From Hymenobacter psychrophilus (GTDB taxonomy: Bacteria > Bacteroidota > Bacteroidia > Cytophagales > Hymenobacteraceae): a DNA stretch of 64,000 bases. The notes under the pieces were generated by a model, which was given only the letters and a program-made list of their open reading frames with translations, was not told the origin of the DNA and did not search any database. Both the position numbers and the translations under genes were made by a program. Shown here piece after piece: positions 4,246 through 60,677 of this stretch (position 1 is the first letter of the stretch; every line of letters begins with the position of its first letter). The DNA lies in NCBI RefSeq assembly GCF_900107135.1, contig NZ_FNOV01000002.1, positions 310,001-374,000 of the forward strand. Direction: 5' to 3'.

Positions 4246-4360
4246 CCCAGAACGTCATTCTGAGCAGCGCGAAGAATCTCGCGTGCTGACGTTGTGGTGG
4301 ACTTACCTTAGTTACTTTGGCACGCGAGATTCTTCGCGCTGCTCAGAATGACGTTCTGGG
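4246..4360. repeat. Long inverted repeat, class GAAGAATCTCGCGTG
   Basis: Left arm 4246-4285 and right arm 4321-4360 are perfect complements over 40 bases with a 35-base loop. The arm carries GTCATTCTGAGC, the core AGCGC and GAAGAATCTCGCGTG. It lies downstream of the LysM gene and upstream of the TIGR02757 gene (both minus strand), so it could end LysM transcription. Related copies are at 10861-10963 and 39187-39302. Confidence 0.95.
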
Positions 4361-4382
4361 CGGTATAACGCTCACTACCAGC

Positions 4383-5351
4383 CTACGGCACGTAGCTGGT
4401 TTCTACGCGGAAGCGCTGGTCGGGGGTGGCCAGGCGCTGCACGGCGCGCTTGGAGAGGCGCAGCAGCACCTTGTCGTTTTCGCCGGTGTCGGGCAGGCGG
4501 CCGATAACGCGCACGTACACCGCCTGGCCGTTCATGATGTTGCGCACCTCCATGATGGTGCCCACGGCGGCCGTTTTGTGCAAGGCCAGGTATTTGTCCG
4601 AGGCATCGGTGGGGATAACCATGGCCAGACCGCTTTCCGTGACGCGGCGGCTGGCTTCGTTGACGCGCACCGGGGCGGGTGCCTCTTTGGCGTCGGCGGG
4701 CTCGGGCGTAACGGCCGGCGAAGTGGCTTCGTCGCGGGCCTTTTCGCGCTCGGCGTCGCGGGCCACGGCTTTCTCGCGGGCCGTGGGCTTGGTGGCGGCC
4801 ACTACGGGGGCGGCAGGGCCAGCCGCACCGGTGGCGGGCGCCGACACAATAATTACTTCGCCCACCCGCACGCTGTGGTCGGCGTCGAAGCCGTTGAGAC
4901 GGGCCAGCTCGGCGGGCGTGGTCTGGAAGCGGCGGGCAATGGCGTAGAGCGTCATGCCGGGCGTTACTTTGTACACGCGGTTGCCGCTGGCGTCGGTGGC
5001 CAGCGCGCGCGTGGCAGCCGATGCGGGCGCGGCCACTGCTACGGGGGCCGCGGGCCGGGCTGGAGTCGCAGGCGTGAGTACCACCCGGGTGCGCGGAATG
5101 AGCACTATCTGGCCCATGTTAAGCTGCCCCTTCTGGCCCGAATTAGCCTCCACAATGTCCTCGACGGGCACTTTATAGCGGCGGGCGAGGCCGTAAATGG
5201 TTTCGCCGGCCGTTACGCGGTGGCGAATCAGCAGCTTGTTGTTGCGGTATTCCACCCCGATGGAATCGGGCGGAGCCACCGGCGCGGGAGCCGCCCACGC
5301 GGAAAAGCCGGAGAGGACAAGGGCGGCGGTCAGCAACGAAAATCGGGACAT
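4383..5351 (-). CDS. Secreted protein with two LysM domains and RlpA-like C-terminus
   Basis: About 322 residues from the ATG at 5351 (a second ATG at 5366 adds five residues). The N-terminus is a Sec signal peptide ending near FSAWA-APA. Two LysM repeats follow: about 44-87 (HRVTAGETIYGLARRYKVP) and about 127-173 (YKVTPGMTLYAIARRFQTT). A linker rich in Ala, Pro, Glu and Lys leads to a C-terminal domain (about 235-322) with ESGLAMVIP, ALHKTAAVGTIMEVRN and VYVRVIGRLPDTGEND, the pattern of a double-psi beta-barrel as in RlpA. LysM binds peptidoglycan, so the protein should act in the periplasm on the cell wall. Whether the barrel is a transglycosylase or only structural is unclear, because the catalytic Asp/Glu pair cannot be assigned with certainty. 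A weak TAACTTTA -7 element lies at 5414-5421 on the minus strand. Confidence 0.88.
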   Translation of the reverse strand: MSRFSLLTAALVLSGFSAWAAPAPVAPPDSIGVEYRNNKLLIRHRVTAGETIYGLARRYKVPVEDIVEANSGQKGQLNMGQIVLIPRTRVVLTPATPARPAAPVAVAAPASAATRALATDASGNRVYKVTPGMTLYAIARRFQTTPAELARLNGFDADHSVRVGEVIIVSAPATGAAGPAAPVVAATKPTAREKAVARDAEREKARDEATSPAVTPEPADAKEAPAPVRVNEASRRVTESGLAMVIPTDASDKYLALHKTAAVGTIMEVRNIMNGQAVYVRVIGRLPDTGENDKVLLRLSKRAVQRLATPDQRFRVETSYVP

Positions 5352-5548
5352 AAGAAAGCAGAACACGAAGCGGATAAGCGGGCCGAAACCAACGCAGCCG
5401 CATAAACTTTGCCTAAAGTTACGGATTCGGGCTTTAGTACCGCCCCCGTAGCCTGTAATCCGGTTATTTTGGGGCCGCCCGGCACCATGCGGCTGGCAAT
5501 TCGCCGCATTTGCCGTTTCTTGCGCTTCGCCTTTTTCACTCCATCCCT

Positions 5549-6295
5549 ATGCTTGCCATCGGCATCATTCCCGCCCGCTACGCCTCCACCCGCCTGCCCG
5601 GCAAGCCGCTCATCGACCTCGGTGGCCAGACCATGATAGAACGCGTGGTGCGGCAGGCCCAGCAGGCCAACCTGCAACGGGTGGTAGTAGCCACCGACGA
5701 CGAGCGGATTCTGGCGCATGTGCGCGGCTTCGGCGGCGAGGCCGTGCTCACCAGCCCCAACCACCCCAGCGGCACCGACCGCGTGCGCGACGCCTACGAG
5801 CAGCTGGGCATCACGGCCGATTGCGTCGTCAACATCCAGGGCGACGAGCCCTTCATTCATCCCGACCAGATAAACGCGCTGCTGGCCCTGTTTGCCGACC
5901 CCGCCACGCAAATCGGGACGCTGGTAAAGCCGGTTGTCAGCGAGGAGGAGCTGTTCAGCCCGCACCTGCCCAAAGTGGTGCTCGACAGCCGGGGGCGGGC
6001 GCTGTATTTCAGCCGCCACCCCCTGCCCTACCAGCGCCAGCACGCGCCCACCGAGTGGCTGGCCTACCATTGCTACCTGCGCCACATCGGCCTTTACGCC
6101 TACCGTCCCGACGTGCTGCGCGCCCTCACCCAGCTGCCGCCCTCGCCCCTGGAGCTGGCCGAAAGCCTCGAACAGCTCCGCTGGCTCGAAGCCGGCTACC
6201 CCATCCAAACCGCCGAAACCGAGCTGGAAACAATTGGTATTGATACGCCGGAAGACGTGGAGCGGGCGCTACGCTTGATTGAAGCCAGGAGGTAA
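5549..6295 (+). CDS. kdsB: 3-deoxy-manno-octulosonate cytidylyltransferase
   Basis: A 248-residue enzyme that transfers CMP from CTP to Kdo, activating Kdo for lipid A-core assembly in the cytoplasm. Diagnostic blocks: IGIIPARYASTRLPGKPL at the N-terminus (nucleotide-binding loop), VVVATDDERI, SPNHPSGTDRV, VVNIQGDEPFI and the C-terminal ESLEQLRWLEAGYPI with IDTPEDVERA. The ATG at 5549 is preferred over the upstream one at 5510 because family members begin directly before IIPARY. It is divergent from the LysM gene with about 200 bases between them, and convergent with the GH97 gene across an inverted repeat. A lipopolysaccharide-bearing Gram-negative envelope is implied. Confidence 0.96.
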   Translation: MLAIGIIPARYASTRLPGKPLIDLGGQTMIERVVRQAQQANLQRVVVATDDERILAHVRGFGGEAVLTSPNHPSGTDRVRDAYEQLGITADCVVNIQGDEPFIHPDQINALLALFADPATQIGTLVKPVVSEEELFSPHLPKVVLDSRGRALYFSRHPLPYQRQHAPTEWLAYHCYLRHIGLYAYRPDVLRALTQLPPSPLELAESLEQLRWLEAGYPIQTAETELETIGIDTPEDVERALRLIEARR

Positions 6296-6309
6296 AGGGA
6301 GCAAATAAA

Positions 6310-6410
6310 ACCGACTGTTATCCTGAGCAGCGCGAAGGACCTATACAGAAGCTACTATCAGATAATAGCCTCCGTATAGGTCCTTCGCGCTGCTCAGGAT
6401 GACAGCCGGT
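6310..6410. repeat. Long inverted repeat, class GAAGGACCT, between convergent genes
   Basis: Arms 6310-6345 and 6375-6410 match in 34 of 36 positions, with a 29-base loop. The arm is GTCATCCTGAGC-AGCGC-GAAGGACCTATA. It sits between the stops of kdsB (+) and the GH97 gene (-), where a two-way terminator would be expected. Confidence 0.95.
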
Positions 6411-6429
6411 TCTGCTTTGACTTTAACGC

Positions 6430-8763
<2,334 letters not shown>

Positions 8764-8772
8764 ACTAGAAAT

Positions 8773-9189
8773 CTACTCCTGTTGGCGGGCCTGACGCTGC
8801 ACGTGGTGCTCGGCGGCGGCGCGGTGCTCATCCTTCATTTCGCGCGAGAGGAAGAAGTTGAGGGCGGTCCGGATGACGGCAATGGCCCCGAGTTTGCCAA
8901 TCTGCTCCCAACTCGGCGCGATGGTAGTGGAAAGAATATCGGCCCCGAGCTGGAATTCGAGGGCCAGCGCCAGGTAGCGGGCCAGCGTGAGGCGGATGGC
9001 CGTAAAATCGGCCGTGCGGCGCGCCAGCAGAGCTTTGACGAAATAATAGCCCGCTAGTAAAATCCCCAACACAATAATGCCCGCCCCAATGGCCTCGGCG
9101 CCCAGCTTCAGCCAGAGCACCGCGTGCACTACCGTTTCTTCAACCTGGGTGTAAGCATTGGAAACATGCGGCAGCATAGTGTCGGGCAT
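8773..9189 (-). CDS. DUF1622 membrane protein
   Basis: About 138 residues from the ATG at 9189; an alternative ATG lies four codons further in, and the open frame extends upstream only through a GTG at 9258. DUF1622 proteins are small membrane proteins of unknown function. Three hydrophobic helices are visible: LGAEAIGAGIIVLGILLAGYY, LARYLALALEFQLGADIL and LGAIAVIRTALNFFL. The loop RLTLARYLALALEFQ and the motif IRTALNFFLSREM are characteristic of the family. The C-terminus is charged (ERR and RQARQQE). It is on the same strand as the GH97 gene but separated by an inverted repeat, so probably a separate transcript. Confidence 0.85.
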   Translation of the reverse strand: MPDTMLPHVSNAYTQVEETVVHAVLWLKLGAEAIGAGIIVLGILLAGYYFVKALLARRTADFTAIRLTLARYLALALEFQLGADILSTTIAPSWEQIGKLGAIAVIRTALNFFLSREMKDEHRAAAEHHVQRQARQQE

Positions 9190-9322
9190 CGGGCGCGGGG
9201 CTTGATGAGGGAAGTAGGGTGTACGGCTGCGCCGGAGCAGCGGCCAGCCAGTAGGCACTGGAAAGAAGTTGGCAGTTAATCACGCGCGGCCCCATGCCGA
9301 AGCGCACCTGAGCCCGACTCCC

Positions 9323-9658
9323 TCAGCCGCCGGCCTTCTTCGCCTTGTAGCCCTTTTCGAGCAGCAACGCCAGCACTTTATCGCGGAAATCACCCTGAAT
9401 GATGACTTCGCCGTCCTTGGCGTTGCCGCCGACGCCGCAGCGGGTTTTGAGCAGTTTGCCCAGCGCCTGCAAGTCAGCCTCCTGGCCCACAAAGCCGGTT
9501 ATCAGCGTCACCTGCTTGCCCCCGCGCGACTTCTTATCGAGCTGCACGCGCAGGTTTTGCTGCTGGGGCGGCAGCGTAGCGGCCGTTTGTTCGGTGGGTT
9601 CGTCGTAGCTGAATTCGGGATTCGTGGAGTACACCACACCCTGTCGGTTGATTTTCAT
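9323..9658 (-). CDS. yciH: SUI1/eIF1-like translation factor (YciH family)
   Basis: A 111-residue protein. The N-terminal 40 residues are polar; the SUI1 fold follows with VQLDKKSRGGKQVTLITGF, then LKTRCGVGGNAKDGEVIIQG and DKVLALLLEKGYKAKKAGG. SUI1/eIF1 binds the small ribosomal subunit and monitors start-codon choice in eukaryotes; bacterial YciH has been linked to inhibition of translation initiation under stress. The ATG at 9658 is reliable. Directly upstream, separated by two bases, are eleven perfect copies of a 7-base repeat (9661-9737), an odd setting for a start codon; see that entry. Confidence 0.93.
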   Translation of the reverse strand: MKINRQGVVYSTNPEFSYDEPTEQTAATLPPQQQNLRVQLDKKSRGGKQVTLITGFVGQEADLQALGKLLKTRCGVGGNAKDGEVIIQGDFRDKVLALLLEKGYKAKKAGG

Positions 9659-9660
9659 GG

Positions 9661-9737
9661 TTAGGGATTAGGGATTAGGGATTAGGGATTAGGGATTAGG
9701 GATTAGGGATTAGGGATTAGGGATTAGGGATTAGGGA
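9661..9737. repeat. Tandem 7-base repeat, 11 copies, in the yciH leader
   Basis: Eleven uninterrupted copies of TTAGGGA (TCCCTAA on the coding strand of yciH) begin three bases upstream of the ATG. Arrays like this change copy number by slippage; seven is not a multiple of three, but the array is outside the frame, so a change would alter leader length or promoter spacing and not the protein. Confidence 0.98.
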
Positions 9738-9743
9738 AAATAC

Positions 9744-9870
9744 GAACGTCATGCTGAGCGCAGCGTAGCGGAGTCGAAGCATCTCTACTGCAATGGTAAC
9801 CCTGACTATTACGACGAAGCGGTAGAGATGCTTCAACTGCGGCTGCGCCTTCGCTCAGCATGACCCGTTC
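9744..9870. repeat. Long imperfect inverted repeat, class GAAGCATCTCTAC
   Basis: Left arm about 9744-9791 and right arm about 9819-9870. Outer part GTCATGCTGAGCG and inner part GAAGCATCTCTAC pair; the middle has several mismatches and unequal length (gcagcgtagcggagtc against gaaggcgcagccgcagtt). It lies between the lipid kinase start side and the 7-base array. It belongs with 15297-15392, 26334-26444 and 32053-32156. Confidence 0.85.
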
Positions 9871-9920
9871 TTTCTGCGCCGCTCGATAATTCACTCACTC
9901 ACCGAGTCACTCTCTCACCC

Positions 9921-10790
9921 CTACACCGCCACTTCCAGCGCCAGCGGCTCCAGCAGCACCTCAAAGTCGGTGGCGTCGGCCACGTAGTCACCATCGACGT
10001 GGAAGCCCAGCGGGGCGGCGGCCTGCACCCGGATGTGGCGGCTGCGGTGGAACTGGGCGCCGCCCGAGGTGGGCAACGTGCCCAGCGCCAGCCCTACGCC
10101 CACCTGCACGGCCCGCCAGATGGGCAGCGCGTCAATCAGACAGAGGTCGAGCAGGCCGTCCTGGATATTGGCGCGGGGCGCGATGTAGGCGTTGTTGCCG
10201 TATTGCGAGGCGTTAGCAAAAGCCAGCACGTAGCAGTGGGTGTCGCGCACAGCCTCGTTTTCCAGCGTCAGCTGCACGGCGGTGGGGCGGTAGTTGCGGT
10301 ATTCGCACAGGGCCACTTTCACGTAGGTAGCCAGCCCGCGGGTGCCGGCCTGGGCAAACATGCGGCTCACGTGGGCATCAAACCCCAGCCCGGCGGTGCA
10401 GAAAAACCAATACCCATTGATGCGGCCCGCGTCGATGCGCTGAAAAGTGGGGCTGCAAACCCGACGCACGGCGGCGGGCAAATCGAGCGGTACGTGCAGG
10501 TGGCGGGCCAGGCCGTTGCCCGAGCCCCGGGGCACGATGCCCAGCGCCGTGCCGGTGCCTAGCAGGCCCCGGGCCACCTCGTTCACGGTCCCATCGCCAC
10601 CCACGGCTACCACCACCCGGCAGCCGGCCGCGGCGGCCTTGCGGGCCAGCTCCTCGGCGTGGCCGGCATACTGCGTGGGCATAATATCAAACTCGGCCCC
10701 GGCCGCCGTGGCGTGCTCCGTGAGCAGCGCCGCCACATTCTGGCTCCGGTCAGTGCCGGACATGGGGTTTAAAATAAAGCAGACACGCAT
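9921..10790 (-). CDS. Diacylglycerol/lipid kinase family protein (YegS/BmrU type)
   Basis: A 289-residue enzyme of the diacylglycerol kinase catalytic fold. Hallmarks: N-terminal FILNPMSG, the ATP-site loop VVAVGGDGTVNEVARGLLGT, and LGIVPRGSGNGLARHL. A beta-sandwich C-terminal domain follows (about 130-289), with GLGFDAHVSRMF and HVDGDYV. Such enzymes phosphorylate diacylglycerol, sphingoid bases or phosphatidylglycerol at the membrane using ATP and magnesium; the substrate cannot be told from sequence. The ATG at 10788-10790 gives the family N-terminus directly. Upstream towards gap is a nested inverted repeat. Confidence 0.93.
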   Translation of the reverse strand: MRVCFILNPMSGTDRSQNVAALLTEHATAAGAEFDIMPTQYAGHAEELARKAAAAGCRVVVAVGGDGTVNEVARGLLGTGTALGIVPRGSGNGLARHLHVPLDLPAAVRRVCSPTFQRIDAGRINGYWFFCTAGLGFDAHVSRMFAQAGTRGLATYVKVALCEYRNYRPTAVQLTLENEAVRDTHCYVLAFANASQYGNNAYIAPRANIQDGLLDLCLIDALPIWRAVQVGVGLALGTLPTSGGAQFHRSRHIRVQAAAPLGFHVDGDYVADATDFEVLLEPLALEVAV

Positions 10791-10797
10791 TTTTTTG

Positions 10798-11012
10798 AGC
10801 TGTTAGCTGAGAGCTGTTAGCTGTTAGCTTTCCAGTAGAAGGCCGGAAGCTGACAACAAAAGAACGTCATTCAGAACGAAGCGAAGAATCTCGCGTGAAA
10901 TCGTTGGGAATTACCCTGACGATTAACACGCGAGATTCTTCGCTTCGCTCTGAATGACGTTCTACGAACGGTTCACGTAGCATGTTGAGCTAACAGCTCT
11001 CAGCTAACAGCT
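10798..11012. repeat. Nested double inverted repeat
   Basis: Outer arms 10798-10822 and 10988-11012 are perfect over 25 bases (AGCTGTTAGCTGAGAGCT...). Inside them a second pair, 10861-10897 and 10927-10963, matches in 36 of 37 bases and belongs to the GAAGAATCTCGCGTG class, with core GAACGAAGC. The element lies between gap (3' side) and the lipid kinase gene (5' side), both minus strand. Confidence 0.95.
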
Positions 11013-11018
11013 TGTAAA

Positions 11019-12278
<1,260 letters not shown>

Positions 12279-12286
12279 CAGCACCA

Positions 12287-12314: not shown

Positions 12315-12386
12315 GGTCCGTTCGTCTAGGGGTTAGGACAGTAGATTTTCATTCTACCAACAGGGGTTCGATTCCCCTACGGACTA
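12315..12386 (+). tRNA. tRNA-Glu (anticodon UUC)
   Basis: A 72-base tRNA with D arm GTCTAGGGGTTAGGAC, anticodon stem GTAGA/TCTAC around TTTTCAT (anticodon TTC), T arm AGGGGTTCGATTCCCCT, acceptor GGTCCGT/ACGGACT and discriminator A. The CCA end is not encoded (ACAAA follows). The first acceptor pair would be G-U; the 5' end could be one base further in. Confidence 0.95.
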
Positions 12387-12862: not shown

Positions 12863-12934
12863 GGTCCGTTCGTCTAGGGGTTAGGACAGTAGATTTTCAT
12901 TCTACCAACAGGGGTTCGATTCCCCTACGGACTA
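12863..12934 (+). tRNA. tRNA-Glu (anticodon UUC), second copy
   Basis: Identical over all 72 bases to the copy at 12315-12386, with the same leader and a different terminator. The start-to-start distance is 548 bases. Confidence 0.95.
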
Positions 12935-15268: not shown

Positions 15269-15296
15269 GCAATGAAGCTGTTTAGAAAGTCAAAAA

Positions 15297-15392
15297 GACC
15301 GTCATGCTGAGCCTGTCGAAGCATCTCTGTCGCTCCGTAGCAGTCATTCGACGAAGCGGTAGAGATGCTTCGACAGACTCAGCATGACAGTC
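15297..15392. repeat. Long inverted repeat, class GAAGCATCTCT, between convergent genes
   Basis: Left arm 15297-15329 and right arm 15356-15392. GTCATGCTGAG, core CTGTC and GAAGCATCTCT pair with two mismatches. It lies between the large secreted protein (+) and bestrophin (-). Just before it, at 15284-15302, is a 19-base word also found near 45694. Confidence 0.9.
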
Positions 15393-15521
15393 TAATTAAT
15401 GCGGCATAATACTGCTTTCGGGTTCAGCACAAGGCTGAGCATACTCTTGTAGCCAAGTGCCGGGTATATGCAACGCGTAGCATGCGTACCTGCGGCTGTT
15501 TTGCTAACGGAGGCGCCTTCC

Positions 15522-23611: not shown

Positions 23612-23710
23612 GTGTATGTGTGGGGCTTGCCCCCGCCCGCCATTCACCCCGTTATAACGAGTCCGCTCGATGGCGTTAACGGCGGGCGGGGACAAGCCCC
23701 ACACATACAC
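23612..23710. repeat. Inverted repeat GTGTGGGGCTTGnCCCCGCCCGCC between convergent genes
   Basis: Arms 23612-23641 and 23681-23710 match in 29 of 30 bases, loop 39 bases with further weak pairing. It lies between the Fpg-like gene (+) and the SDR (-). A related element is at 61326-61410. Confidence 0.95.
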
Positions 23711-26333: not shown

Positions 26334-26444
26334 GGTCATGCTGAGTGAAGGCGCAGCCGTAGCCGAAGCATCTCTACCGCAGTGCTAATCCTGTTGTTGA
26401 TTTTACCAATGCAGTAGAGATGCTTCGACTGCGCTCAGCATGGC
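26334..26444. repeat. Long inverted repeat, class GAAGCATCTCTAC, in a divergent gap
   Basis: Left arm about 26334-26383 and right arm about 26408-26444. GTCATGCTGAG and GAAGCATCTCTAC pair; the middle differs between arms (gaaggcgcagccgtagc against cgcagt). It lies upstream of both neighbours, so a terminator role is unlikely for this copy. Confidence 0.85.
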
Positions 26445-32052: not shown

Positions 32053-32156
32053 AATGAACGTTATACTGGGCTTGCCGAAGAATCTCTACCGCTTCATTGT
32101 AATGACTTAGACGAAGCGGTAGAGATTCTTCGGCAAGCTCAGCATGACATTTCATT
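32053..32156. repeat. Long inverted repeat, GAAGAATCTCTACCGCTTC type
   Basis: Arms 32053-32095 and 32113-32156. Core CTTGCC and GAAGAATCTCTACCGCTTC pair perfectly; the outer GTCATnCTGAGC has three changes in the left arm (gttatactggg). It lies between the receptor and PepSY genes, which may still be co-transcribed. Confidence 0.9.
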
Positions 32157-35269: not shown

Positions 35270-35358
35270 ATCAAGGAGAAAAAGCCAAAAGTAAAAGCCG
35301 TTGAACAAACCAAGGGGTGATGTTCAACGGCTTTTACTTTTGGCTTTTTCTCCTTGAT
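35270..35358. terminator. Perfect 38-base-arm hairpin between convergent genes
   Basis: Arms 35270-35307 and 35321-35358 are perfect complements with a 13-base loop. Both sides carry AAAAAGCC/GGCTTTTT runs, so it can act as a terminator in both directions. Its sequence is unrelated to the GTCATnCTGAGC elements. Confidence 0.92.
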
Positions 35359-38144: not shown

Positions 38145-38247
38145 AAAAACCCTGTCATCCTGAGCGGAGCGAAGGACCTTACCACGTAACAACGACCTGT
38201 GCTTACGTGATAAGGTCCTTCGCTCCGCTCAGGATGACAGGGTTTTT
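38145..38247. repeat. Perfect inverted repeat, class GAAGGACCTTA, A/T-flanked
   Basis: Arms 38145-38181 and 38211-38247 are perfect over 37 bases, pairing on into the loop (CCACGTAA/TTACGTGA) with one mismatch. Outer ends are five A and five T, so this copy is a textbook two-way terminator. Core: GGAGC. Confidence 0.95.
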
Positions 38248-39186: not shown

Positions 39187-39302
39187 AGAACGTCATTCCG
39201 AGCGGAGCCGAGGAATCTCGCGTGCTGACATTGTGCTAGTAATCATACGTCAGGATTACCATTGCACGCGAGATTCCTCGGCTCCGCTCGGAATGACGTT
39301 CT
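39187..39302. repeat. Perfect inverted repeat, class GGAATCTCGCGTG, in a divergent gap
   Basis: Arms 39187-39225 and 39264-39302 are perfect over 39 bases; core GGAGCC. It is wrapped in a weaker outer pair, GTTGCTGGTTGTCAG (about 39155-39169) and CTGACAACCAACAAC (39311-39325), one mismatch. The gap is 341 bases; besides this element it holds the SulP leader. Confidence 0.95.
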
Positions 39303-41051: not shown

Positions 41052-41168
41052 TAGAAACCGCCTGTCATCCTGACGAAGGAAGGACCTTATAACGTTGCAG
41101 CACGTCGTTTCAACGTTCGTGCAAGCGTAATAAGGTCCTTCCTTCGTCAGGATGACAGGCGGTTTCTA
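41052..41168. repeat. Perfect inverted repeat, class GAAGGACCTTAT, between convergent genes
   Basis: Arms 41052-41090 and 41130-41168 are perfect over 39 bases. Here the variable core is GAAGGAAGGACC directly after GTCATCCTGAC, so the GAGC step is altered in both arms alike. Confidence 0.95.
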
Positions 41169-42185: not shown

Positions 42186-42316
42186 CTAGTTCCCCTCCTT
42201 GGAAAGGAGGGGTTAGGGGTGGTTGATGATGGAAGAACAGCTGCTAGGTCGCCCTTAATAACCGTTCTGCTAGCTTCCACCACCCCTAACCCCTCCTTTC
42301 CAAGGAGGGGAACTAG
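42186..42316. repeat. Perfect inverted repeat CTAGTTCCCCTCCTTGG...
   Basis: Arms 42186-42223 and 42279-42316 are perfect over 38 bases. Each arm contains the inner CCCCTCCTTGGAAAGGAGGGG palindrome and GTTAGGGGTGGT. A similar element is at 48103-48234. Confidence 0.95.
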
Positions 42317-43143: not shown

Positions 43144-43199
43144 ACTGAGTTGATGGGGGACTGGAGGCTGAGGGATTAGGTTGGCAGAGGTTTAGGGAC

Positions 43200-43286
43200 C
43201 TGTCATCCTGAGCTTGCGAAGGACCTTATCATGTTTGAACGAATCGTTATGACGTGGCAAGGTCCTTCGCAAGCTCAGGATGACAG
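43200..43286. repeat. Perfect inverted repeat CTGTCATCCTGAGCTTGCGAAGG...
   Basis: Arms 43200-43227 and 43259-43286 are perfect over 28 bases; core TTGC. The arms are identical to those at 60583-60677, 17 kb away, while the loops differ. Confidence 0.95.
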
Positions 43287-43330
43287 AACCGCAACCCAGT
43301 TCCTCAGCCCCCGAGTCCCTCACAAACTCA

Positions 43331-45602: not shown

Positions 45603-45799
45603 GAATTAAAAATTAAAAGTAAAAAGTTAAAAATGGCTGTTCTTTTTACTTCCTGACTTCAAATTTGAAGGAGCGAAGACGAGGTTAGGTCAGGCGAAGC
45701 TGTTTAGAAAGTCAGCTCCGGCAATGCAATTCGATACAGCGGTTTCGTAAACGGTGGACCTGGATAATTTTTCACTTTTAATTTTTCACTTTTAATTTC
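45603..45799. repeat. AT-rich inverted repeat overlapping the end of permease 1
   Basis: GAATTAAAAATTAAAAGTAAAAAGTTAAAAAT (45603-45634, shown in part) pairs imperfectly with the region 45767-45799, which is a direct repeat of TTTTTCACTTTTAA. The inside holds GAAGCTGTTTAGAAAGTCA (about 45695-45713), a word also found at 15284. Confidence 0.75.
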
Positions 45800-46628: not shown

Positions 46629-46826
46629 GTCGTTCTGGCGTCGCGCCTCACCCCCCGGCCCCCTCTCCGAAAAAGGAGAGGGGGTGCCAGACGATTTGAG
46701 TCGATGGCCGCTGCAACAGGATGGACATAACGGCCGGTTTTTCGCTAACCGAAACCATCTATTTCGTCAGGCTCCCCCTCTCCCCCTGGAGAGGGGGCCG
46801 GGGGGTGAGGCGCGACGGAAGAACGA
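46629..46826. repeat. Inverted repeat of the CGCCTCACCCCCCGGCC class
   Basis: Arms 46629-46668 and 46788-46826 pair except at three positions. Both arms contain their own CCCCTCTCC/GGAGAGGGG hairpin. The 44638 solo arm is the same sequence. Confidence 0.9.
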
Positions 46827-46853
46827 CACACCCGAGTTGCTTCACACAAATAC

Positions 46854-48102: not shown

Positions 48103-48234
48103 TAGCTCCCCTCCTCAGATGAGGAGGGGTTGGGGGTGGTTGAATACCGCTGAACGACAACTAGAAACTAGTTCTAGAAGACGTGCCGCTAGCATCAACC
48201 ACCCCCAACCCCTCCTTTCCAAGGAGGGGAGCTA
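48103..48234. repeat. Inverted repeat TAGCTCCCCTCC...GGTTGGGGGTGGTTGA
   Basis: Arms 48103-48143 and 48195-48234, about 35 of 40 paired; the left inner hairpin reads CTCCTCAGATGAGGAGG, the right CTCCTTTCCAAGGAG. Same class as 42186-42316. It separates the receptor gene from the binding-protein gene. Confidence 0.9.
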
Positions 48235-53483: not shown

Positions 53484-54476
53484 ATGAGCAACCTCAAAAA
53501 AGTAGCCTTGGGCAGCCAGGGCCTGGAAGTATCCATCGAAGGGCTGGGCTGCATGGGTATGTCGGACTTTAGCGGCGGCACCATTTACGGCCCCACCAAC
53601 GACGCCGAAAGCCTCGCCACCATCCATCGGGCCCAGGAGTTGGGCATCACCATGCTCGACACGGCCGACGTGTACGGTCCCTTTCACAACGAGCAGCTGC
53701 TGGGCCGCGCCCTGGCCGGCCGCCGCACGCAGTTCACCGTTGCCACCAAGTTCGGGTTTGAAATCGGCGACGATGGCCAGTGGAACTACCAGTACAACGG
53801 CCGGCCGGAATACGTGCGCAAGTCCATCGAACGGTCGTTGCGGCACTTGAACACCGACTACATCGACCTTTACTACCTGCACCGCGTGGATGCCAGCACG
53901 CCCATTGAAGACACTGTGGGGGCCATGAGCCGGCTGGTGGAAGAAGGCAAAGTCCGCTACCTGGGCCTGAGCGAGGTATCGGCCGACGAGCTGCGCCGGG
54001 GCCACGCCGTGCACCCCATTTCGGCCCTGGAAACCGAATACTCGCTCTTCGACCGGACGGTGGAGGAAAACGGCATGCTGGCCCTGACCCGGAAGCTGGG
54101 CATCGGTTTTGTGGGCTACTCGCCACTGGGCCGGGGGTTTTTGTCGGGCCAAATCAAGCACCCCGACGACTTCGCGGCCGATGATTCGCGGCGCATGTTT
54201 CCGCGCTACCAGGGCGAGAATTTTGTTCGGAATCTGGAGCTGGTGGCAAAGCTGGAGGCCCTGGCTCAGGCTAAAGGAGTTACGTCGGCCCAGCTGGCCC
54301 TGGCCTGGGTGCTGGCCCAGGGCGTGGTGACCATTCCGGGCACCAAGCGCCGCGCCTATCTGGCCGCCAACGTGGCCGCTGCCGACATTGTCCTCAGCCC
54401 AGCCGAGCTGGCCGAACTCGATGCCATCATGCCGGTGGGCAGCGTGGCCGGCGCGGCGTATCCGAGCTTTGGCTGA
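53484..54476 (+). CDS. Aldo/keto reductase, YakC/AKR13 type
   Basis: 330 residues from the ATG at 53484; the frame extends to 53433 without conservation. LGSQGLEVSIEGLGCMGMSDF is the AKR13 N-terminus, then TMLDTADVYGPFHNEQLLG (Asp, Tyr), FTVATKFGFEI (Lys), IDLYYLHRVD (His), GYSPLGRGFLSG and VTIPGTKRRAYLAANV at the cofactor site. The two AKR proteins differ clearly and are not a recent duplication. The AraC regulator begins 28 bases after its stop, so the two may share a transcript. Confidence 0.94.
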   Translation: MSNLKKVALGSQGLEVSIEGLGCMGMSDFSGGTIYGPTNDAESLATIHRAQELGITMLDTADVYGPFHNEQLLGRALAGRRTQFTVATKFGFEIGDDGQWNYQYNGRPEYVRKSIERSLRHLNTDYIDLYYLHRVDASTPIEDTVGAMSRLVEEGKVRYLGLSEVSADELRRGHAVHPISALETEYSLFDRTVEENGMLALTRKLGIGFVGYSPLGRGFLSGQIKHPDDFAADDSRRMFPRYQGENFVRNLELVAKLEALAQAKGVTSAQLALAWVLAQGVVTIPGTKRRAYLAANVAAADIVLSPAELAELDAIMPVGSVAGAAYPSFG

Positions 54477-54504
54477 AGCCAACCGTCCTTCTTTTCTCAT
54501 TCCC

Positions 54505-55443
54505 ATGAAGCAGCCCGCCCAGGAGTTCCAGGTGCTGGAAACTGTAACCGACTACACCCGCTTTTACGAGCTGCCCGCCCCGGCCCATCCGCTGCTGACG
54601 CTCATCGACCTGCAGCCGTCCGGCGGCGCTGGCCCGGCCGCCAGCCGCCCGGAGGTGCTGGGCCCGGTGGTGCCGGGACTGTACACGGTGTTTCTGAAGC
54701 GTAACCTCAACGGCCCGCTCTATTACGGGCACCACACCTACGATTTTCGGGAGGGCGTGATGGGTTTTTCGGCCCCGGGGCAGGTGTTTCGGGTGGCCCG
54801 GGAGCTCGACACCTCCCGGTTGAGCGGCTGGATGCTGGTGTTCCACCCCGACCTGCTGCGGCACCATCCGCTGGCCCGGAAAATAGCCAGCTACGGGTTT
54901 TTCGCCTACGATGTGCACGAAGCCCTGCACCTCTCGGCGTCGGAGGAAGCCCTGCTCGATACGCTGCTGCTGGGCCTGCGGCAGGAATATGAGCGGCCCA
55001 TTGATGCCTTCAGCCAGGATGTGCTGGTGGCCCAGCTGGAAGTGCTGCTCCACTATGCCAACCGCTTCTACCACCGCCAGTTTCTAACCCGCCGCACCGC
55101 CGGCCACGACTTGCTGCAGCGGTTTGAGGCGCTGCTGGCCGCCTACTTCACGCCCGGCGCGGCGCGGCCCCTGCCCACCGTGCGCTATTTCGCCGACGAG
55201 CTGCACGTGTCAGTCGCCTACCTCAGCGACCTGCTCCGGACGCTCACCCACCAGAATGCCCAGCAGCATATCCACCACGCCCTCATCGAGCGGGCTAAGC
55301 ACTTACTGCTGAGCACCAACCTGACTATCAGCGAAACGGCGTTCCAGTTGGGGTTCGAGTATCCGCAGTATTTCAGCCGCTTGTTCAAGCGCAAAACGGG
55401 CCGTAGCCCAGCGGCCTTCCGCACCGAAGGCTGGTTCCAGTAG
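54505..55443 (+). CDS. AraC family transcriptional regulator
   Basis: 312 residues. N-terminal cupin-like effector domain (about 1-190) with FREGVMGFSAPGQVFRV, then a C-terminal double helix-turn-helix (about 215-312): VRYFADELHVSVAYLSDLL (first recognition helix) and LTISETAFQLGFEYPQYFSR with LFKRKTGRSPAAFR (second). The upstream AKR gene is 28 bases away, so it probably controls that gene or the oxidoreductases around it. The ATG at 54505 is chosen because upstream codons belong to the overlapping AKR end. Convergent with an SDR gene, only 7 bases between the stops. Confidence 0.92.
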   Translation: MKQPAQEFQVLETVTDYTRFYELPAPAHPLLTLIDLQPSGGAGPAASRPEVLGPVVPGLYTVFLKRNLNGPLYYGHHTYDFREGVMGFSAPGQVFRVARELDTSRLSGWMLVFHPDLLRHHPLARKIASYGFFAYDVHEALHLSASEEALLDTLLLGLRQEYERPIDAFSQDVLVAQLEVLLHYANRFYHRQFLTRRTAGHDLLQRFEALLAAYFTPGAARPLPTVRYFADELHVSVAYLSDLLRTLTHQNAQQHIHHALIERAKHLLLSTNLTISETAFQLGFEYPQYFSRLFKRKTGRSPAAFRTEGWFQ

Positions 55444-55450
55444 GCGCGGG

Positions 55451-56335
55451 TTACTCGTAGAAATTCCGCATCCGGCGCATGGTTGTCAGCACCACCCAGT
55501 CGCCGAGGCGGGGGAAGTTGCCGTGGACGATGGCAATGAGCCAGCCCAGGGCCGAAATAACGGTGCGCTGCTTCCGCTTGCGGATGTGGCGCAGGATGAT
55601 GGCGGCCACTTCGGCCTGGGTTTTCTGCCAACGGGGCTTGCGGTAGGCAATGGGCACGGGCTGGCCGGCCGCATCGAGCACGCGCTTGTCGTCGTCGTTT
55701 TCGGTGAAGCCGATGTGCACCACCCCGAAGTGCACGCCCGTCCCGTCGAGCTCCAGGCGCAGGGTGTGGGCCAGATTGGTGAGGGCGGCCTTGCCGGCGC
55801 AGTAGGCCGAGCCGCTGGGCATGCCGTTCAGCGCCGAAATCGAGGAAATAAACGTGACGCTGCCCTGGCTTTTGAGCAGGTGCGGCAGGGCGGCCTTGAG
55901 CGGAAACACGGCCCCGTACACGTTGCTGTCAAGCACCCGCTTAAACACCTCGGGGCTCATGTCGAGGAAGTAGGCGCGCTGCGAGATGCTGGCGTTGGCA
56001 ATCAGGATATCGAGCCGGCCAAACACCTGGATGGCCGTTTGCACCAGCGCCTCGCAGGCGGCGTAATCGGTGATGTCGGCCAGGCTGGTGGCCACGGTGG
56101 CTCCGGCGGCCTCGAGCTGCCGGCGGGTGGCTTCGAGGCAGTCGGCGCGGCGGCCGTTGAGCACCACGGCGGCCCCGGCCGCGCACAAGGCCCGGGCCGT
56201 TTCGCGCCCAATGCCCGACTCCGAGCCCGTGACAATAGCTACCTGCCCGGCCAAGGGGCCGGCCGTAGGCAGGGCGCGGCGCGCAACCGGGGCAGCAGCG
56301 GCGGCAACAGGTTCAGAAATTTGAGTGAGTACCAT
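55451..56335 (-). CDS. SDR family NAD(P)-dependent oxidoreductase
   Basis: 294 residues from the ATG at 56335 (GTG at 56353 also in frame). An Ala/Pro-rich N-terminus precedes VAIVTGSESGIGRETARAL (cofactor loop), IANAS in place of the usual NNAG, SSISA with the catalytic Ser, and YCAGKAAL (Tyr-x3-Lys). The tail (250-294) has a hydrophobic helix ALGWLIAIVHGNFPRL that may touch the membrane. Its place beside an AraC regulator and two AKR genes suggests a shared detoxification role, which remains a guess. Confidence 0.9.
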   Translation of the reverse strand: MVLTQISEPVAAAAAPVARRALPTAGPLAGQVAIVTGSESGIGRETARALCAAGAAVVLNGRRADCLEATRRQLEAAGATVATSLADITDYAACEALVQTAIQVFGRLDILIANASISQRAYFLDMSPEVFKRVLDSNVYGAVFPLKAALPHLLKSQGSVTFISSISALNGMPSGSAYCAGKAALTNLAHTLRLELDGTGVHFGVVHIGFTENDDDKRVLDAAGQPVPIAYRKPRWQKTQAEVAAIILRHIRKRKQRTVISALGWLIAIVHGNFPRLGDWVVLTTMRRMRNFYE

Positions 56336-56385
56336 TAACAAGGATTCGAGCACGGCCGGGGCCAGGCGTAGTGCAAAGATACGGG

Positions 56386-57450
56386 TTAAACGTACCGATG
56401 GGCTTTAAACCACGCAAAAGCCTCCGTAATGGCCTGGGCCACCGGGGTTTGGGGCAGACCCAGTTCGCGGCGCGCTTTCTCGACCCCGAAATAATGGCCG
56501 TCGTTGGCTACGGCCGTCATGGCGGCGTTCAGGCGGCCCGGCTGGCCCGTGAGACGGGCTTGCAGGCTGCACAGTTGGCCATACAGCTGAGCCAGGCCGG
56601 CCGGCAGGGGCCAGCGCGGAGCCGGCACGTTCAGCAACCCAGCCATCAGGGCGAAGGCCTCGCGGTAGCGCAGGTTCTCGTTGCCCAAAATGTACGACTC
56701 CCCCACGCTACCCATAGTCAGCGCATTCACAGTGGCCACGGCCACGTCGCGCACGTGCACGTAGTTTTTGCCGCCGGGCGGGTAGCCGGGCACCCTGCCC
56801 CGGTAAATCTCCAGCAGCAGCGCCCCGGAAGTCGGTTTCCGGTCCTCGGGCCCGAGCATAAAGGTGGGATGCACCAACACGGCCGGCAGCTGCTCGTCGG
56901 CCACGGCGGCCAGCACCAGGTCGGTGGCGGCGCGCTTGCTGTCCATGTAGTCGAGGCCGTAGCGGGTGCCGGCGTAGGGCCGGGTTTCGTCGCCGGGGTT
57001 TTGCTGGGTTCCGAAGCCGAAGACGTTGGCCGTGCCCACGTACACCAGCCGCCCCACGGCGGCCCGGCGGGCCTCGGCCAGCACGGCGCGGGTGCCCTCC
57101 ACGTTCACCGTCCAAAGTGCCGGGTTGCGGGCCGGATTCACGCTGGCCAGCGCGGCGGCATGGATAATAGCCCCGCAGCCCTCGGCCGCGCCGGTCAGGG
57201 TGGCGGGCTGGGTGAGGTCGCCGGGCCAGTATTCCACATTCCAGTCGGTGGGGAAGGGCGGCGCGGTGCCGGGTCGCACCAGCACCCGCACGGCGTGGCC
57301 CCGGCGGTGCAGTTCGGCCACTAAGTGCCGGCCCAAAAACCCGTTGGCCCCGGTAACAAGGACGTCCAATGGCCGCAAACAATCATTGGCCGGCCCAGGC
57401 GCGCGGCTCTTTACATTGTCTGATATTGCAGGGTTATTTCGCGACTCCAT
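56386..57450 (-). CDS. NAD(P)-dependent epimerase/dehydratase (extended SDR)
   Basis: 354 residues. DVLVTGANGFLGRHLVAEL (GxxGxxG), HAVRVLVRPG, AIIHAAALASV, YVGTANVFGFG and, in place of the usual YxxxK context, YGLDYMDSKRAATDL. The group includes dihydroflavonol-4-reductase-like and 3-beta-hydroxysteroid dehydrogenase-like proteins; I cannot tell the substrate. The ATG at 57450 stands only 22 bases from the ATG of the divergent S41 peptidase. Confidence 0.92.
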   Translation of the reverse strand: MESRNNPAISDNVKSRAPGPANDCLRPLDVLVTGANGFLGRHLVAELHRRGHAVRVLVRPGTAPPFPTDWNVEYWPGDLTQPATLTGAAEGCGAIIHAAALASVNPARNPALWTVNVEGTRAVLAEARRAAVGRLVYVGTANVFGFGTQQNPGDETRPYAGTRYGLDYMDSKRAATDLVLAAVADEQLPAVLVHPTFMLGPEDRKPTSGALLLEIYRGRVPGYPPGGKNYVHVRDVAVATVNALTMGSVGESYILGNENLRYREAFALMAGLLNVPAPRWPLPAGLAQLYGQLCSLQARLTGQPGRLNAAMTAVANDGHYFGVEKARRELGLPQTPVAQAITEAFAWFKAHRYV

Positions 57451-57472
57451 TCTCCGGTTGATTCGTCTTTTT

Positions 57473-58777
57473 ATGCCTTATTCTCTGCATGCTTCTTTGG
57501 GCAATTTATTCGCTGGACTGGTTGTTTGCCTGGCCCCCTATTCCGGGCAGGCCCAGTCGGTGCCCGCGGCGGCGGCCGTGCCCGGTTTGGCAGCCAGTCC
57601 CGCGCCGGGTAGCTCCTTCGATTCGGCCGCCGCTTGGCTGGAGTTCACCGAGCTGGTGCGCATGCAGTACGCCTATTTTACGCGCCCCGGGATTGATGGT
57701 GAGGCTATTCTGACCGACTTCAAGCTCAGAGCCCAGGCGGCCACCACCAAGGCGGCCTTCCGCGACGTGCTGCAACTCATTGCCCACAATTTTGCCGATC
57801 CACATTTTATCGTTGGCCCGCTCGATACGCTGGACTACAACGTGGTGCCGACCAATTCGGATCTGGTAGCGCAGTACAGGGACGGAAAGTATACGGTGGT
57901 TGATGTCAGGAGTGAGAGTGAGGCGCAAAGGCAGGAGATTCGCCCCGGCGCCCAGGTTGTCCGCATCGATGGTTTGGCCCCCCAGGCGGCGGTAGAGGCC
58001 GTGATGGGACGGCCGCTGGCAGCTCTGTCCGGCGTGCAGATTGATGCCGGAATTACCATCGCCCTGGCGGGGCGGCGGCAGCACACCCGCCAGCTTACGC
58101 TGCAAAATGGCCGCCAGTCCCGCACCTATACCCTGCTCTCGCCCGAGGTGCAAGCCCGGCTCCTGCGGAAGGATTCGGCACTGAGCACCGAGCAGCGGGG
58201 CCGTGTAACCGTTATCCGTTTCAATAACTCGCTGGGCAACAACGCCACCATTGCGGCTTTCCGGGAGGCGCTGGCAGCGGCCCAGTCGTCGGCCGGACTG
58301 GTACTCGACTTTCGCAATACGCCCAGCGGCGGCAACACCACCGTTGCCCGCAGCATTATGGGCCATTTCGTGCGCACCGAAAAGCCCTATCAAGTGCATG
58401 TAGTGCCCGGGGAGGAACGCCGCTACGGAGTGCCCCGCAAGTTTGTGGAATACGTGCTGCCGCTGGCACCCTATTTCGGCGGGAAAGTACTGGTGCTCGG
58501 GGGCCACTGGACGGGTAGTATGGGCGAGGGGTTGCTGGTTGGATTTTCGGCGTTGGGAGTGCCCACGGCCGGCTCCGAGCTGGCCGACTTGCTCGGGGCG
58601 TTGTTCAACGACAAGCTCAGCCACTGCGACGCCCTAATTGATTTGGGGAAAGAGCAGCTGTTCCAGGTGAATGGCGAGCCGCGGGAAAATTTTGTTCCCA
58701 CGCTTTACCGGCCGGCCAGCGAGGGAACCGCCGAGCGGGATGAGCTGCTGGAGCAAGCCATTCGGGCAGTGGAATAG
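57473..58777 (+). CDS. Secreted S41 family peptidase-like protein
   Basis: 434 residues from the ATG at 57473; the frame is open to 57026 but the extra part only mirrors the opposite gene. Signal peptide ending YSGQA-QS. An alpha-helical N-terminal part (about 50-110), a PDZ-like region (EIRPGAQVVRIDGLAPQAAV) and the S41 core: VIRFNNSLGNN, GLVLDFRNTPSGGNTTVA and VLGGHWTGSMGEGLLV with the presumed nucleophile Ser near 350. The Lys partner is not clear. Unlike CtpA it has no C-terminal extension. Probably a periplasmic protease or inactive relative. Confidence 0.86.
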   Translation: MPYSLHASLGNLFAGLVVCLAPYSGQAQSVPAAAAVPGLAASPAPGSSFDSAAAWLEFTELVRMQYAYFTRPGIDGEAILTDFKLRAQAATTKAAFRDVLQLIAHNFADPHFIVGPLDTLDYNVVPTNSDLVAQYRDGKYTVVDVRSESEAQRQEIRPGAQVVRIDGLAPQAAVEAVMGRPLAALSGVQIDAGITIALAGRRQHTRQLTLQNGRQSRTYTLLSPEVQARLLRKDSALSTEQRGRVTVIRFNNSLGNNATIAAFREALAAAQSSAGLVLDFRNTPSGGNTTVARSIMGHFVRTEKPYQVHVVPGEERRYGVPRKFVEYVLPLAPYFGGKVLVLGGHWTGSMGEGLLVGFSALGVPTAGSELADLLGALFNDKLSHCDALIDLGKEQLFQVNGEPRENFVPTLYRPASEGTAERDELLEQAIRAVE

Positions 58778-58863
58778 AAACCGGCCACCGTTGCCTCCGG
58801 TAGTCAGCGTCGCCAAGGAGCCGCCACCTAACCAAAGAACAAAAGCGACTCACCAAAACCTAC

Positions 58864-59562
58864 CTACCGGTGGTTGATGAGGGTTTTGTAGGTGCGGCCG
58901 ATGCGGGCGGGCTCCACTTTCAGGAAGTAAAGCGCGAAGGCCGTAAGGTTGGCCAGCTGCACCCGCAGCCAGCTGTTCTGCTCGTATTTGCGGGCCGATA
59001 CCACCACGCTTTCGGGCACGATATGGAACGCGGCTACTCGGCGGATGCGCTGGATAATCTCGAAATCCTCCATCACCACAAACCGCTCGTTGAAGCCGCC
59101 CAGCTGCCCGAATAGCTCCCTGGTAATAAACAACGTCTGGTCGCCGCCGCGGCTCATGAGGCCCGGAAAGCGGGTGCCGTAGCTGTTGAGGCGCAGCATG
59201 GGGTGGGTCGAGTCGAAGCGGAAGCGGTAGCAGCCGGCGGGGTAGCCCGCCGCCACGGCCTGCCCGATAGTGGCCACGTAGCCCGGGCAGATACCCACGT
59301 CGGCGTGCACGAAATACAGGATGCGGCCGGTGGCGTGGGCCGCGCCGTAGTTCATTTGGGCGGCGCGGCCGGGGTGCGGGGCCCGCAGCACGGTGGCCCC
59401 GGCGGCCTCGGCCACCGCGGCCGTGCCATCGGCACTGTGGGCATCGACTACCAGAATTTCTATCGCCTCGCCGGAGGGGGCATGCTGGCGCAGCTGCTGC
59501 ACCAGCCCGGCAATGTGGGGCGCTTCGTTATAGGTAGGAATGATGACGCTAAGCTCGGGCAT
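58864..59562 (-). CDS. TIGR04283 family glycosyltransferase
   Basis: 232 residues, family 2 glycosyltransferase fold: LSVIIPTYNEAPHIAGL at the start, ILVVDAHSADGTAAVAEAAG, then APHPGRAAQMNYGAAHATG, ILYFVHADV (DxD-like metal site), GLMSRGGDQTLFITRELF and VMEDFEIIQRIRR. TIGR04283 enzymes occur with ArsS and TIGR04282 in arsenosugar gene sets. Here no ArsS or ArsM is in view, so the product may be another glycoside. C-terminal helix FALYFLKVEPARIGRTYK. Divergent from the DUF547 gene (59794). Confidence 0.9.
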   Translation of the reverse strand: MPELSVIIPTYNEAPHIAGLVQQLRQHAPSGEAIEILVVDAHSADGTAAVAEAAGATVLRAPHPGRAAQMNYGAAHATGRILYFVHADVGICPGYVATIGQAVAAGYPAGCYRFRFDSTHPMLRLNSYGTRFPGLMSRGGDQTLFITRELFGQLGGFNERFVVMEDFEIIQRIRRVAAFHIVPESVVVSARKYEQNSWLRVQLANLTAFALYFLKVEPARIGRTYKTLINHR

Positions 59563-59793
59563 GGACAGCTAAAAAGGAGGGCAATTTGCGTAATTCCCGG
59601 CGGCCACGAAGCACAGCCGGCTTGGCAGATACGTAAAGCCGGGACCGGCTAGTTTGCGCAGGTGAGCAATCCGGCGGCCGCGCGCAACGCGTTTATTGCA
59701 ACGGGTAACGCCACGGCCGGGTTTTTGCCCGTATGCCTTAACTACTTGGCAAAATTGCCCCGGCCGCTGGCCATTTCTTTTACATTCCGACCC

Positions 59794-60573
59794 ATGCTTT
59801 TTTTCCGCAATTTTCTGCTGACGGCGCTTAGCGCTTCTACCCTTTCGGTGACGGCATGCAACGGCCCCGCCGAAACTGCCACCGCTCCGGCGGCCCTGGC
59901 AGCCACACCGGCCGCGGCAGCGGCCTTCGACCACAGCGCCTTCGACCGGCTGCTGAAAAAGTACGTCGATGCCCGGGGACGGGTAAACTACAAGGGCTTC
60001 AGGAGCGAGGAAAAGGATTTCGATGCCTACCTGGCCCGCCTCAGCCAGAACCCGCCCAAGGCCACCGACGCCCAGGCCGAGCAGATGGCCTTCTGGATTA
60101 ACGCCTACAACGCCTACACCATCCGGCTCATTCTCGACAATTATCCGCTCAAGAGCATCAAGGATATCGGGGAGCCTTGGAAGAAGGTATTCTTCAGCAT
60201 CGGAGGCACCAAAATGAGCCTCGACGACATCGAGCACGGCATTCTGCGCAAGAAGTTCGATGATCCGCGCATTCACTTTGCGCTGGTGTGTGCCTCCATC
60301 TCGTGCCCGCCGCTGCGCCCCGAGGCTTACACCGCCGCCCGCCTCAGTGCCCAGCTCGATGCCCAGGGCCGAGCCTTCCTCAACGACACCGGCAAAAACA
60401 AGCTTAACGCCCAAAGCGCCCAGCTTTCCAACTACTTCAACTGGTACAAAGACGACTGGAACAAGAACGGCCAGTCGGTAGTGAAGTGGGTGAACAAGTA
60501 CGCCAAAACCAACATCAGCGACAACACCAAGATTGGCTACCTGGACTACAACTGGAACCTGAACGAGCAATAG
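59794..60573 (+). CDS. DUF547 lipoprotein
   Basis: 259 residues from the ATG at 59794; upstream codons to 59662 are not conserved. Signal LLTALSASTLSVTAC suggests a lipoprotein with Cys22. The DUF547 domain (about 50-259) includes LKKYVDARGRVNYKGF, MAFWINAYNAYTIRLIL, KSIKDIGEPWKKVFF, SLDDIEHGILRK, HFALVCASISCPPLRPEAY and FNWYKDDWN. The VCASxSCPPL phrase has two conserved cysteines. DUF547 proteins are widespread and of unknown function; some sit next to arsenosugar-type glycosyltransferase genes, as here. Confidence 0.93.
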   Translation: MLFFRNFLLTALSASTLSVTACNGPAETATAPAALAATPAAAAAFDHSAFDRLLKKYVDARGRVNYKGFRSEEKDFDAYLARLSQNPPKATDAQAEQMAFWINAYNAYTIRLILDNYPLKSIKDIGEPWKKVFFSIGGTKMSLDDIEHGILRKKFDDPRIHFALVCASISCPPLRPEAYTAARLSAQLDAQGRAFLNDTGKNKLNAQSAQLSNYFNWYKDDWNKNGQSVVKWVNKYAKTNISDNTKIGYLDYNWNLNEQ

Positions 60574-60582
60574 GTATAGTAC

Positions 60583-60677
60583 CTGTCATCCTGAGCTTGC
60601 GAAGGACCTTATTCCATTCGACCTGATGTAACCATCAGTTGAGCGGGGTAAGGTCCTTCGCAAGCTCAGGATGACAG
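60583..60677. repeat. Perfect inverted repeat CTGTCATCCTGAGCTTGCGAAGG..., second copy
   Basis: Arms 60583-60611 and 60649-60677, perfect over 29 bases, followed by CGGTTTTTT, which makes it a good plus-strand terminator for the DUF547 gene. Arms equal those at 43200-43286. Confidence 0.95.

Follow-up and report, generated by a model that had tools for sequence, protein, structure and literature searches.

We characterized a family of intergenic inverted repeats in Hymenobacter psychrophilus, taking as our starting point a 64,000-nucleotide (nt) stretch of its genome (assembly GCF_900107135.1, contig NZ_FNOV01000002.1, positions 310,001 to 374,000). This whole stretch is called the window below, and positions given without a contig label follow its numbering. 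The original prediction had named twelve gaps between genes as sharing one outline; this was upheld, since 12 of 12 hold inverted pairs of one repeat that resembles repetitive extragenic palindromic (REP) elements and carries a CGTC or TGTC tag. On balance, it is probable that the two arms of such a dimer match since inverted REP pairs spread between genes as ready-matched units and are then occasionally re-copied. A replication fork that meets the hairpin would switch templates and copy one arm anew from the other, and this process, rather than replacement or selection, would make the changes that are found in both arms at once.

Results

Along each arm of the repeat, the tag is followed by a stem, in which the core varies, and then by a tail. 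The 4.76-Mb genome has 214 exact matches to the full motif, GTCATNCTGAGC-N3..12-GAAGNANCT, of which 109 are forward and 105 reverse, vs. none when the motif is read backwards as a control. Within the window, GTCATNCTGAGC with at most one mismatch was found 22 times (20 of them inside the named elements), where dinucleotide shuffles gave 0.9 matches; the repeat words thus exceed what composition would give. Of 39 inverted repeats found, the 25 longest were listed, and they include eleven of the twelve named gaps; the arms there measure 31-54 nt at 80-100% complementarity (those at 4246, 41 nt, and 39187, 39 nt, are perfect). The element at 9744 is not among these 25, and both of its halves were detected by the motif scan. 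In 554 kb of contig C18 of the same genome, 35 exact arms form 13 close pairs, with the tags outward in 13 of 13, and 9 exact arms are without an exact partner.

Arms were compared in 90 dimers from about 0.9 Mb of the organism's own sequence, sampled as partly overlapping loci; 80 of them were parsed (160 arms), and in 10 the core was not parsed into two. Three false dimers in coding sequence (C18 314951, C18 342314, and C17 8940; C14, C17, and C18 denote contigs of this genome) were removed from the own-genome sets, and the two on C18 from the gap-context counts given below. The tag was TGTC in 83, CGTC in 54, and CCTC in 1 of the 160 arms, and the tail was CTC in 79 and CTT in 54. Stem position 6 and its partner were C-G in 64 arms, G-C in 42, and T-A in 37, so that 143 of 160 arms are able to pair at this point, and these pairs define three classes (C, G, and T). 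In their common forms, arms of the T class (AT..AT) and G class (AT..AT) have complementary AT at the stem start, and those of the C class (AT..AC) are without it. Folding three single arms gave either 5 pairs or, with a 2x2 mismatch in between, 5+2 or 4+2 pairs; three whole dimers fold as DNA at z-scores of -13 to -18. A short hairpin form of 42-45 nt, with REP ends around a different inside, was also seen at C18:153962, C17:90554, C17:99495, and C17:343417, and in the same-genus genome G008 at the 39187 site.

Cores were identical in 54 of the 80 parsed pairs, vs. 5.6 expected (5,000 shuffles, maximum 15), well above chance. The other 26 pairs, including those at 9744 and 26334 in the window, have unlike cores, so the claim that every copy bears the same core in both arms is wrong: core matching is strong, not universal. 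Both arms belonged to one class in 74 of 80 pairs (C-C 32, G-G 23, T-T 19). There were 44 distinct cores, 22 of which occurred in a single arm only and 9 of which were seen twice. Seven of these nine are the two arms of one element (CTGTC, GCCGCC, GAGGTC, AGAGC, GTGGC, GGAGCCGGAGGCGAAGTC, and GAAGGCGGAGCCGTAGTC) within the sampled sequence, and the rest of the genome could hold more copies. A partner elsewhere in the sample at above 0.85 per base, a score that includes the shared arms, was found for 23 of the 90 dimers. Because the pairs belong to one dispersed family of REP dimers, divided into three stem classes and further sub-types, their arms would match by descent, which explains much of the matching. 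Descent is a cause that had been overlooked originally, when two others were offered, namely copying between arms and selection on paired structure; the former has since gained support from orthologous sites, and selection on the dimers as terminators is weakly supported.

The same gaps were compared in six relatives and seven named loci (labelled G for same-genus genomes and L for loci), and they show fast turnover. Among the named loci, which place the genome in Hymenobacter, the closest is from H. rubripertinctus, with 99% protein identity over one gene. The other species has an element in 308 of 745 ortholog gaps, each direction being counted, a figure that rests on 233 called dimers with two false ones included. 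Among 157 same-site pairs, 58 were of the same class, 58 of different classes, and 41 unclear or mixed. If class frequencies alone were at work, 34% would be alike; 58 of the 116 clear pairs differ, so some occupants stay in place and others are exchanged. A fourth class (ATTGCGAGC..GAAGCAATC) is present in G004 and G016, and in some relatives the orthologous gap has an unrelated long palindrome. These observations bear on an account by descent and replacement only, in which matched units spread, sites are re-used, and two-arm changes are new copies that landed or recombined in, with no arm copying. The class differences favor such an account, as do the spacers, which were alike at the 99% null level in only 6 of 72 same-site pairs of a first set, and the recurrence of matched sub-types in the genome. 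It is also favored by the 39187 site, where the same outer ends enclose a different inside in each of H. psychrophilus, G004, G008, and L262. We nevertheless regard replacement alone as possible but rather unlikely, given the way in which the two arms change.

To follow these changes, pairs were chosen on likeness of spacer or flank, blind to the arms, which gave 34 of the 157 pairs, 32 of them usable (one was false and one had arms too short), at 17 sites. With one pair per site, the REP dimers had 21 concerted and 40 solo columns, along with 4 other columns and 2 kept mismatches. Both arms had changed in 24 columns, vs. 5.6 in a column shuffle (maximum 15 in 10,000) and 5.7 with cross-site pairing (maximum 14 in 5,000). 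At the 10 spacer-homologous sites there were 10 both-arm columns vs. 2.2 and 2.1 expected. Since calling palindromes in both species favors matched arms, the test was redone with calling in one species only, again with one pair per site. At 21 non-REP sites, 43 columns had changed in both arms vs. 14.1 expected (maximum 24 in 5,000), 29 of the 43 being complementary, alongside 74 solo columns; at 12 REP sites the figures were 8 vs. 2.4 (p 0.0004), 6 of 8 complementary, and 35 solo. That the excess remains at spacer-homologous sites and in non-REP hairpins argues against replacement as its sole source.

Inversion of the loop provides a second line of evidence. Spacer likeness was found only in the inverted sense in 5 of the 157 same-site pairs and in the same sense in 11. 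The clearest case in a REP dimer is that of G008 C109 and G040 C34: inverting one spacer brings 33 of its 34 bases into agreement with the other, and the arms show three concerted changes and no solo change; off-site spacers score close, at 58 and 53 vs. 63. A non-REP hairpin of the window with perfect 38-nt arms, at 35270..35358 between convergent genes, was compared between G004 C117 and L261; its 10-nt loop is exactly inverted, with 3 concerted and 1 solo arm changes. Such an exact inversion in an otherwise alignable hairpin is unexpected from a new insertion, again contrary to replacement. In a further hairpin (G004 C147 and G008 C59), 13 concerted and 2 solo changes were counted with loops alike, and 8 and 2 in another alignment. 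Arm homogenization together with spacer inversion is described as the signature of template switching in yeast and in RNA genes (PMC8604942, PMC8794818). Since two-arm complementary changes and loop inversions are products of template switching elsewhere, we infer that the same process may act in Hymenobacter gaps.

Several results weigh against this view. One-arm changes outnumber two-arm changes in the one-per-site tests of REP and non-REP elements alike, and indels at the 17 REP sites were solo in 9 cases, concerted in 3, and other in 2. Columns lost in a wide test that was not limited to one pair per site were one-arm in 74 cases vs. both-arm in 3 for non-REP palindromes, and 10 vs. 0 for REP dimers. 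In the REP subset of strictest identity (3 sites), all 14 changes were solo and none was two-armed, as replacement alone would have it, and the strictest non-REP set (14 pairs) had 5 both-changed columns vs. 3.0 expected, 2 of them complementary. Five REP pairs have spacer likeness above every off-site match; four of them show only solo changes (12 columns) and one only concerted changes. For several other spacers taken as homologous, off-site matches are just as good, so that another copy may have replaced the original at those sites. Moreover, 13 hairpin pairs were compared with palindromes called in both species, which favors matched arms, and the non-REP set takes in repeated palindrome families. 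Single arms have no folding advantage over shuffled DNA (z about 0), and a search for Y1 enzymes tied no transposase to the repeat. Because the strictest REP subset has one-arm changes only, in-place copying of arms in REP dimers, as read from these alignments, is supported, not proven. The notion that mutation is always corrected was rejected, as solo changes dominate.

Paired arms could also be kept by selection on a folded RNA, acting as a terminator or protecting a 3' end, through compensatory mutation. Gene context was judged from codon-usage calls made in this analysis rather than from annotation (397 genes in 554 kb of C18; gaps of at least 60 bp). These calls confirmed that the elements at 26334 and 39187 lie in divergent gaps, as had been noted; among the other ten gaps, 3 are convergent and 7 tandem. 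With inverted repeats of all kinds counted (arms of at least 18, dimers included), convergent gaps hold one more often (30/54) than tandem (56/192) or divergent gaps do (12/52), and TTTT lies in the 20 nt beyond 49 of 180 arm ends vs. 8.8% of random intergenic 20-mers, both in line with selection on RNA. The REP dimers themselves, however, occupy 9/54 convergent, 16/192 tandem, and 6/52 divergent gaps, some two-arm changes are multi-base indels, and the 26 dimers with unlike cores show that such differences are tolerated. We therefore find RNA selection quite improbable as the cause of matched arms, and the dimers do not look like dedicated terminators. Termination as their sole role was set aside because dimers also occupy divergent gaps.

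The likeness between arms often extends outward beyond the tag. In 17 of 80 elements the flanks of the two arms match (score of at least 8), vs. 31 of 6,320 cross-element pairs, with an extreme of 36 nt at C17:317829. Further flank tests used 230 called dimers from H. psychrophilus and relatives, at least one of which is false (C17 8940) and of which those in relatives were not checked singly. In a gapped comparison, 47 of the 230 have outer quasi-palindromes above the 99% cross-element level (2.3 expected). Among the 230, GC skew in the adjoining 50 nt has a positive sign for 207 left flanks and a negative sign for 209 right flanks, and fades within 60-90 nt; it persists where no outer palindrome adjoins (146/162 on either side), and non-REP palindromes show it only weakly (146 and 149 of 240). 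Dimers thus sit at a sharp local change from G-rich on the left to C-rich on the right, with the same sign in convergent, divergent, and tandem gaps of C18. These features would be expected if a G-rich/C-rich quasi-palindrome is there first and dimers land in its tip, an account of the outer arms only that is compatible with ready-matched spread and re-copying. In agreement with it, one gap of L263 has a dimer within a palindrome that L259 (G039) has without the dimer, and other REP dimers have been described inside palindromes (PMC3733652). Against it, a recognizable copy of the outer arm is kept in only 8 of 81 ortholog gaps (21 elements), and no long palindrome is visible by eye at the 38145 site in G004, G016, L261, and L262, which are empty of a dimer. 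At C17:190700, furthermore, the right flank is common to H. psychrophilus and G039, and the left flank differs and fully fits the right only in G039, which points to copying in one lineage. Insertion into such targets is a serious possibility, if somewhat short of likely, and the long outer arms may have arisen partly by landing in an existing quasi-palindrome and partly by palindrome growth through the same copying. At the sites of C18:510444 and C17:150387, G004 and G002 have a palindrome or part of one inside the dimer spacer, as if loops were preferred landing places.

The twelve dimers of the window illustrate the range of cores, classes, and contexts. Three are of the T class: that at 4246..4360 (core AGCGC in both arms; arms 4246-4286 and 4320-4360, 100% complementary; tandem gap), that at 10861..10963 (core GAAGC in both arms; arms 10861-10897 and 10927-10963, the left with a one-arm change, AGAACG), and that at 39187..39302 (core GGAGCC in both arms; divergent gap). 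At the point of the 10861 element, G016, G039, and G040 also hold dimers, with matching flanks. The C class includes the dimers at 6309..6411 (AGCGC in both arms, 6309-6359 and 6361-6411; convergent gap), 38145..38247 (GGAGC in both arms, with a 9-nt outer extension, AAAAACCCT), and 43189..43297 and 60583..60677 (both with TTGC in both arms). The orthologous right arm of the 43189 dimer in L259 (G039) has GGAGC instead of TTGC, and at the 60583 site G016 has a dimer and G008 and G002 have none. The dimer at 41052..41168 (convergent gap) has a C-class variant, CTGACGAAGGAAGG, in both arms; the search for dimers passed it over, so it was read by eye, and the corresponding gap of G004 has a T-class dimer. 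G-class dimers are found at 9748..9864 (unlike cores GCAGCGTAGCGGAGTC and GAAGGCGCAGCCGCAGTT; tandem gap), 15296..15393 (CTGTC in both arms; convergent gap), and 26335..26444 (unlike cores GAAGGCGCAGCCGTAGCC and GCAGTC; divergent gap), and the orthologous copy of the last in L261 likewise has unlike arms. In the dimer at 32057..32151 (tandem gap), both arms have the core TTGCC and the class base differs by arm, A or G.

Other repeats border these elements or share their gaps. An array of GGGATTA units at about 9664-9740 adjoins the 9744 dimer, and similar simple arrays lie beside other dimers, sometimes with complementary arrays on the opposite side. An end resembling that of a miniature inverted-repeat transposable element (MITE), AAGCTGTTTAnAAAGTC or a near form, borders dimers at 15275-15291 (adjoining the 15296 dimer) and 45697-45713, and at C18:489729, C17:54719, and C14:212742; such ends sometimes flank a dimer on both sides, as if it were carried by a larger element. 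Further families of long palindromes (CCCCTCC.., GGCCCCCTCTCC.., and GGGGCTTGTCCCCGC..) occupy gaps at 42186-42316, 46629-46827, 48122-48216, 23612-23710, and 61325-61411, and gaps with these families differ between species where compared. At Rfam gathering scores the window yielded two tRNA genes and nothing else; they have equal scores and lie 548 bases apart, at 12315-12386 and 12863-12934.

Among 108 genomes of the order, the motif was found in 14: all 8 that were sampled from the same genus, with 30 to 342 matches each, and 6 of the 100 from outside it, with 1 to 35. The dimer unit may move by a transposition-like process, for which no enzyme was found. That the window has no transposase or RAYT gene held as far as Y1-type enzymes are concerned, the only family searched for there, the genome's single Y1-type transposase being on another contig. 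This protein scores 60.8 bits as IS200 (cut-off 55) and 31.7 as RAYT (cut-off 80), and the full motif is absent from the 3.3-kb locus of its gene, which gave the only Y1_Tnp hit in the genome, in a search confined to that family. A RAYT as the mover was rejected, as the single Y1 protein is IS200-like and not flanked by the repeat.

Discussion

Taken further, the data allow a picture of Hymenobacter gaps as palindrome workshops, to which we give less credence than to ready-matched spread with occasional re-copying and which we consider doubtful as a whole. Dimers would home to the tips of short G-rich/C-rich quasi-palindromes, where template switching at the replication fork would rewrite arms, invert loops, and lengthen palindromes, such that palindromicity is kept across species and the sequence is not. 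Arm homogenization has mostly been studied with reporter genes in Escherichia coli and yeast. If template switching does act on these elements, a usually invisible mutation process becomes visible in nature, and the rate, tract length, and direction of homogenization could be measured in the wild in this genus, which has hundreds of natural inverted pairs that turn over fast and many species with sequenced genomes. It would also follow that complementary changes in bacterial hairpins are, on their own, no proof of selection on RNA structure. In addition, the skewed surroundings of the dimers offer a testable clue to the spread of CGTC-type REPs.

Of the published elements found, the nearest are CGTC-tagged REP dimers (Di Nocera et al., 2013; PMC3733652). 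Like them, the Hymenobacter repeat is small and intergenic, has a CGTC or TGTC tag, and, in the common forms of the T and G classes, has complementary AT at the stem start; the published elements likewise form inverted dimers, mostly with 20-100 bp of spacer, are reported without a linked or dedicated transposase, and have Bacteroidetes among their listed phyla. The predominance of one dimer orientation described for them is seen here too, given the outward tags on C18. Unlike the published stem of 8-9 bp, the folded Hymenobacter stem has an internal 2x2 mismatch, and its tail is CTC or CTT instead of mostly CCA. Its core of 3 to about 20 nt and its three covarying stem classes also set it apart, a distinction drawn from the published description. 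The Hymenobacter repeat thus shares the tag, the dimer form, and the absence of a linked transposase (as far as Y1 enzymes go) but neither stem form nor tail, and we call it a CGTC-like REP variant, not a member of that family. A literature search returned no report of intergenic inverted repeats in Hymenobacter; papers that mention both the genus and palindromes do not, by title, concern such repeats, those listed as containing 12-letter words of the repeat have unrelated titles, and a term search of the main text of the RepRanger paper (PMC12306157) gave no mention of the genus. REPINs with their RAYT are also inverted REP pairs that fill intergenic space as units (PMC3733652), but the Hymenobacter repeat is without their GTAG tag and flanks no RAYT. 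Quasi-palindrome correction, or template-switch homogenization, is described in yeast coding DNA and RNA genes (PMC8604942, PMC8794818), whereas here it would act on bacterial intergenic dimers and hairpins, as judged from comparison at the species level rather than from a rooted strain-level event. What the two would have in common is that arms are made identical and spacers are inverted between relatives.

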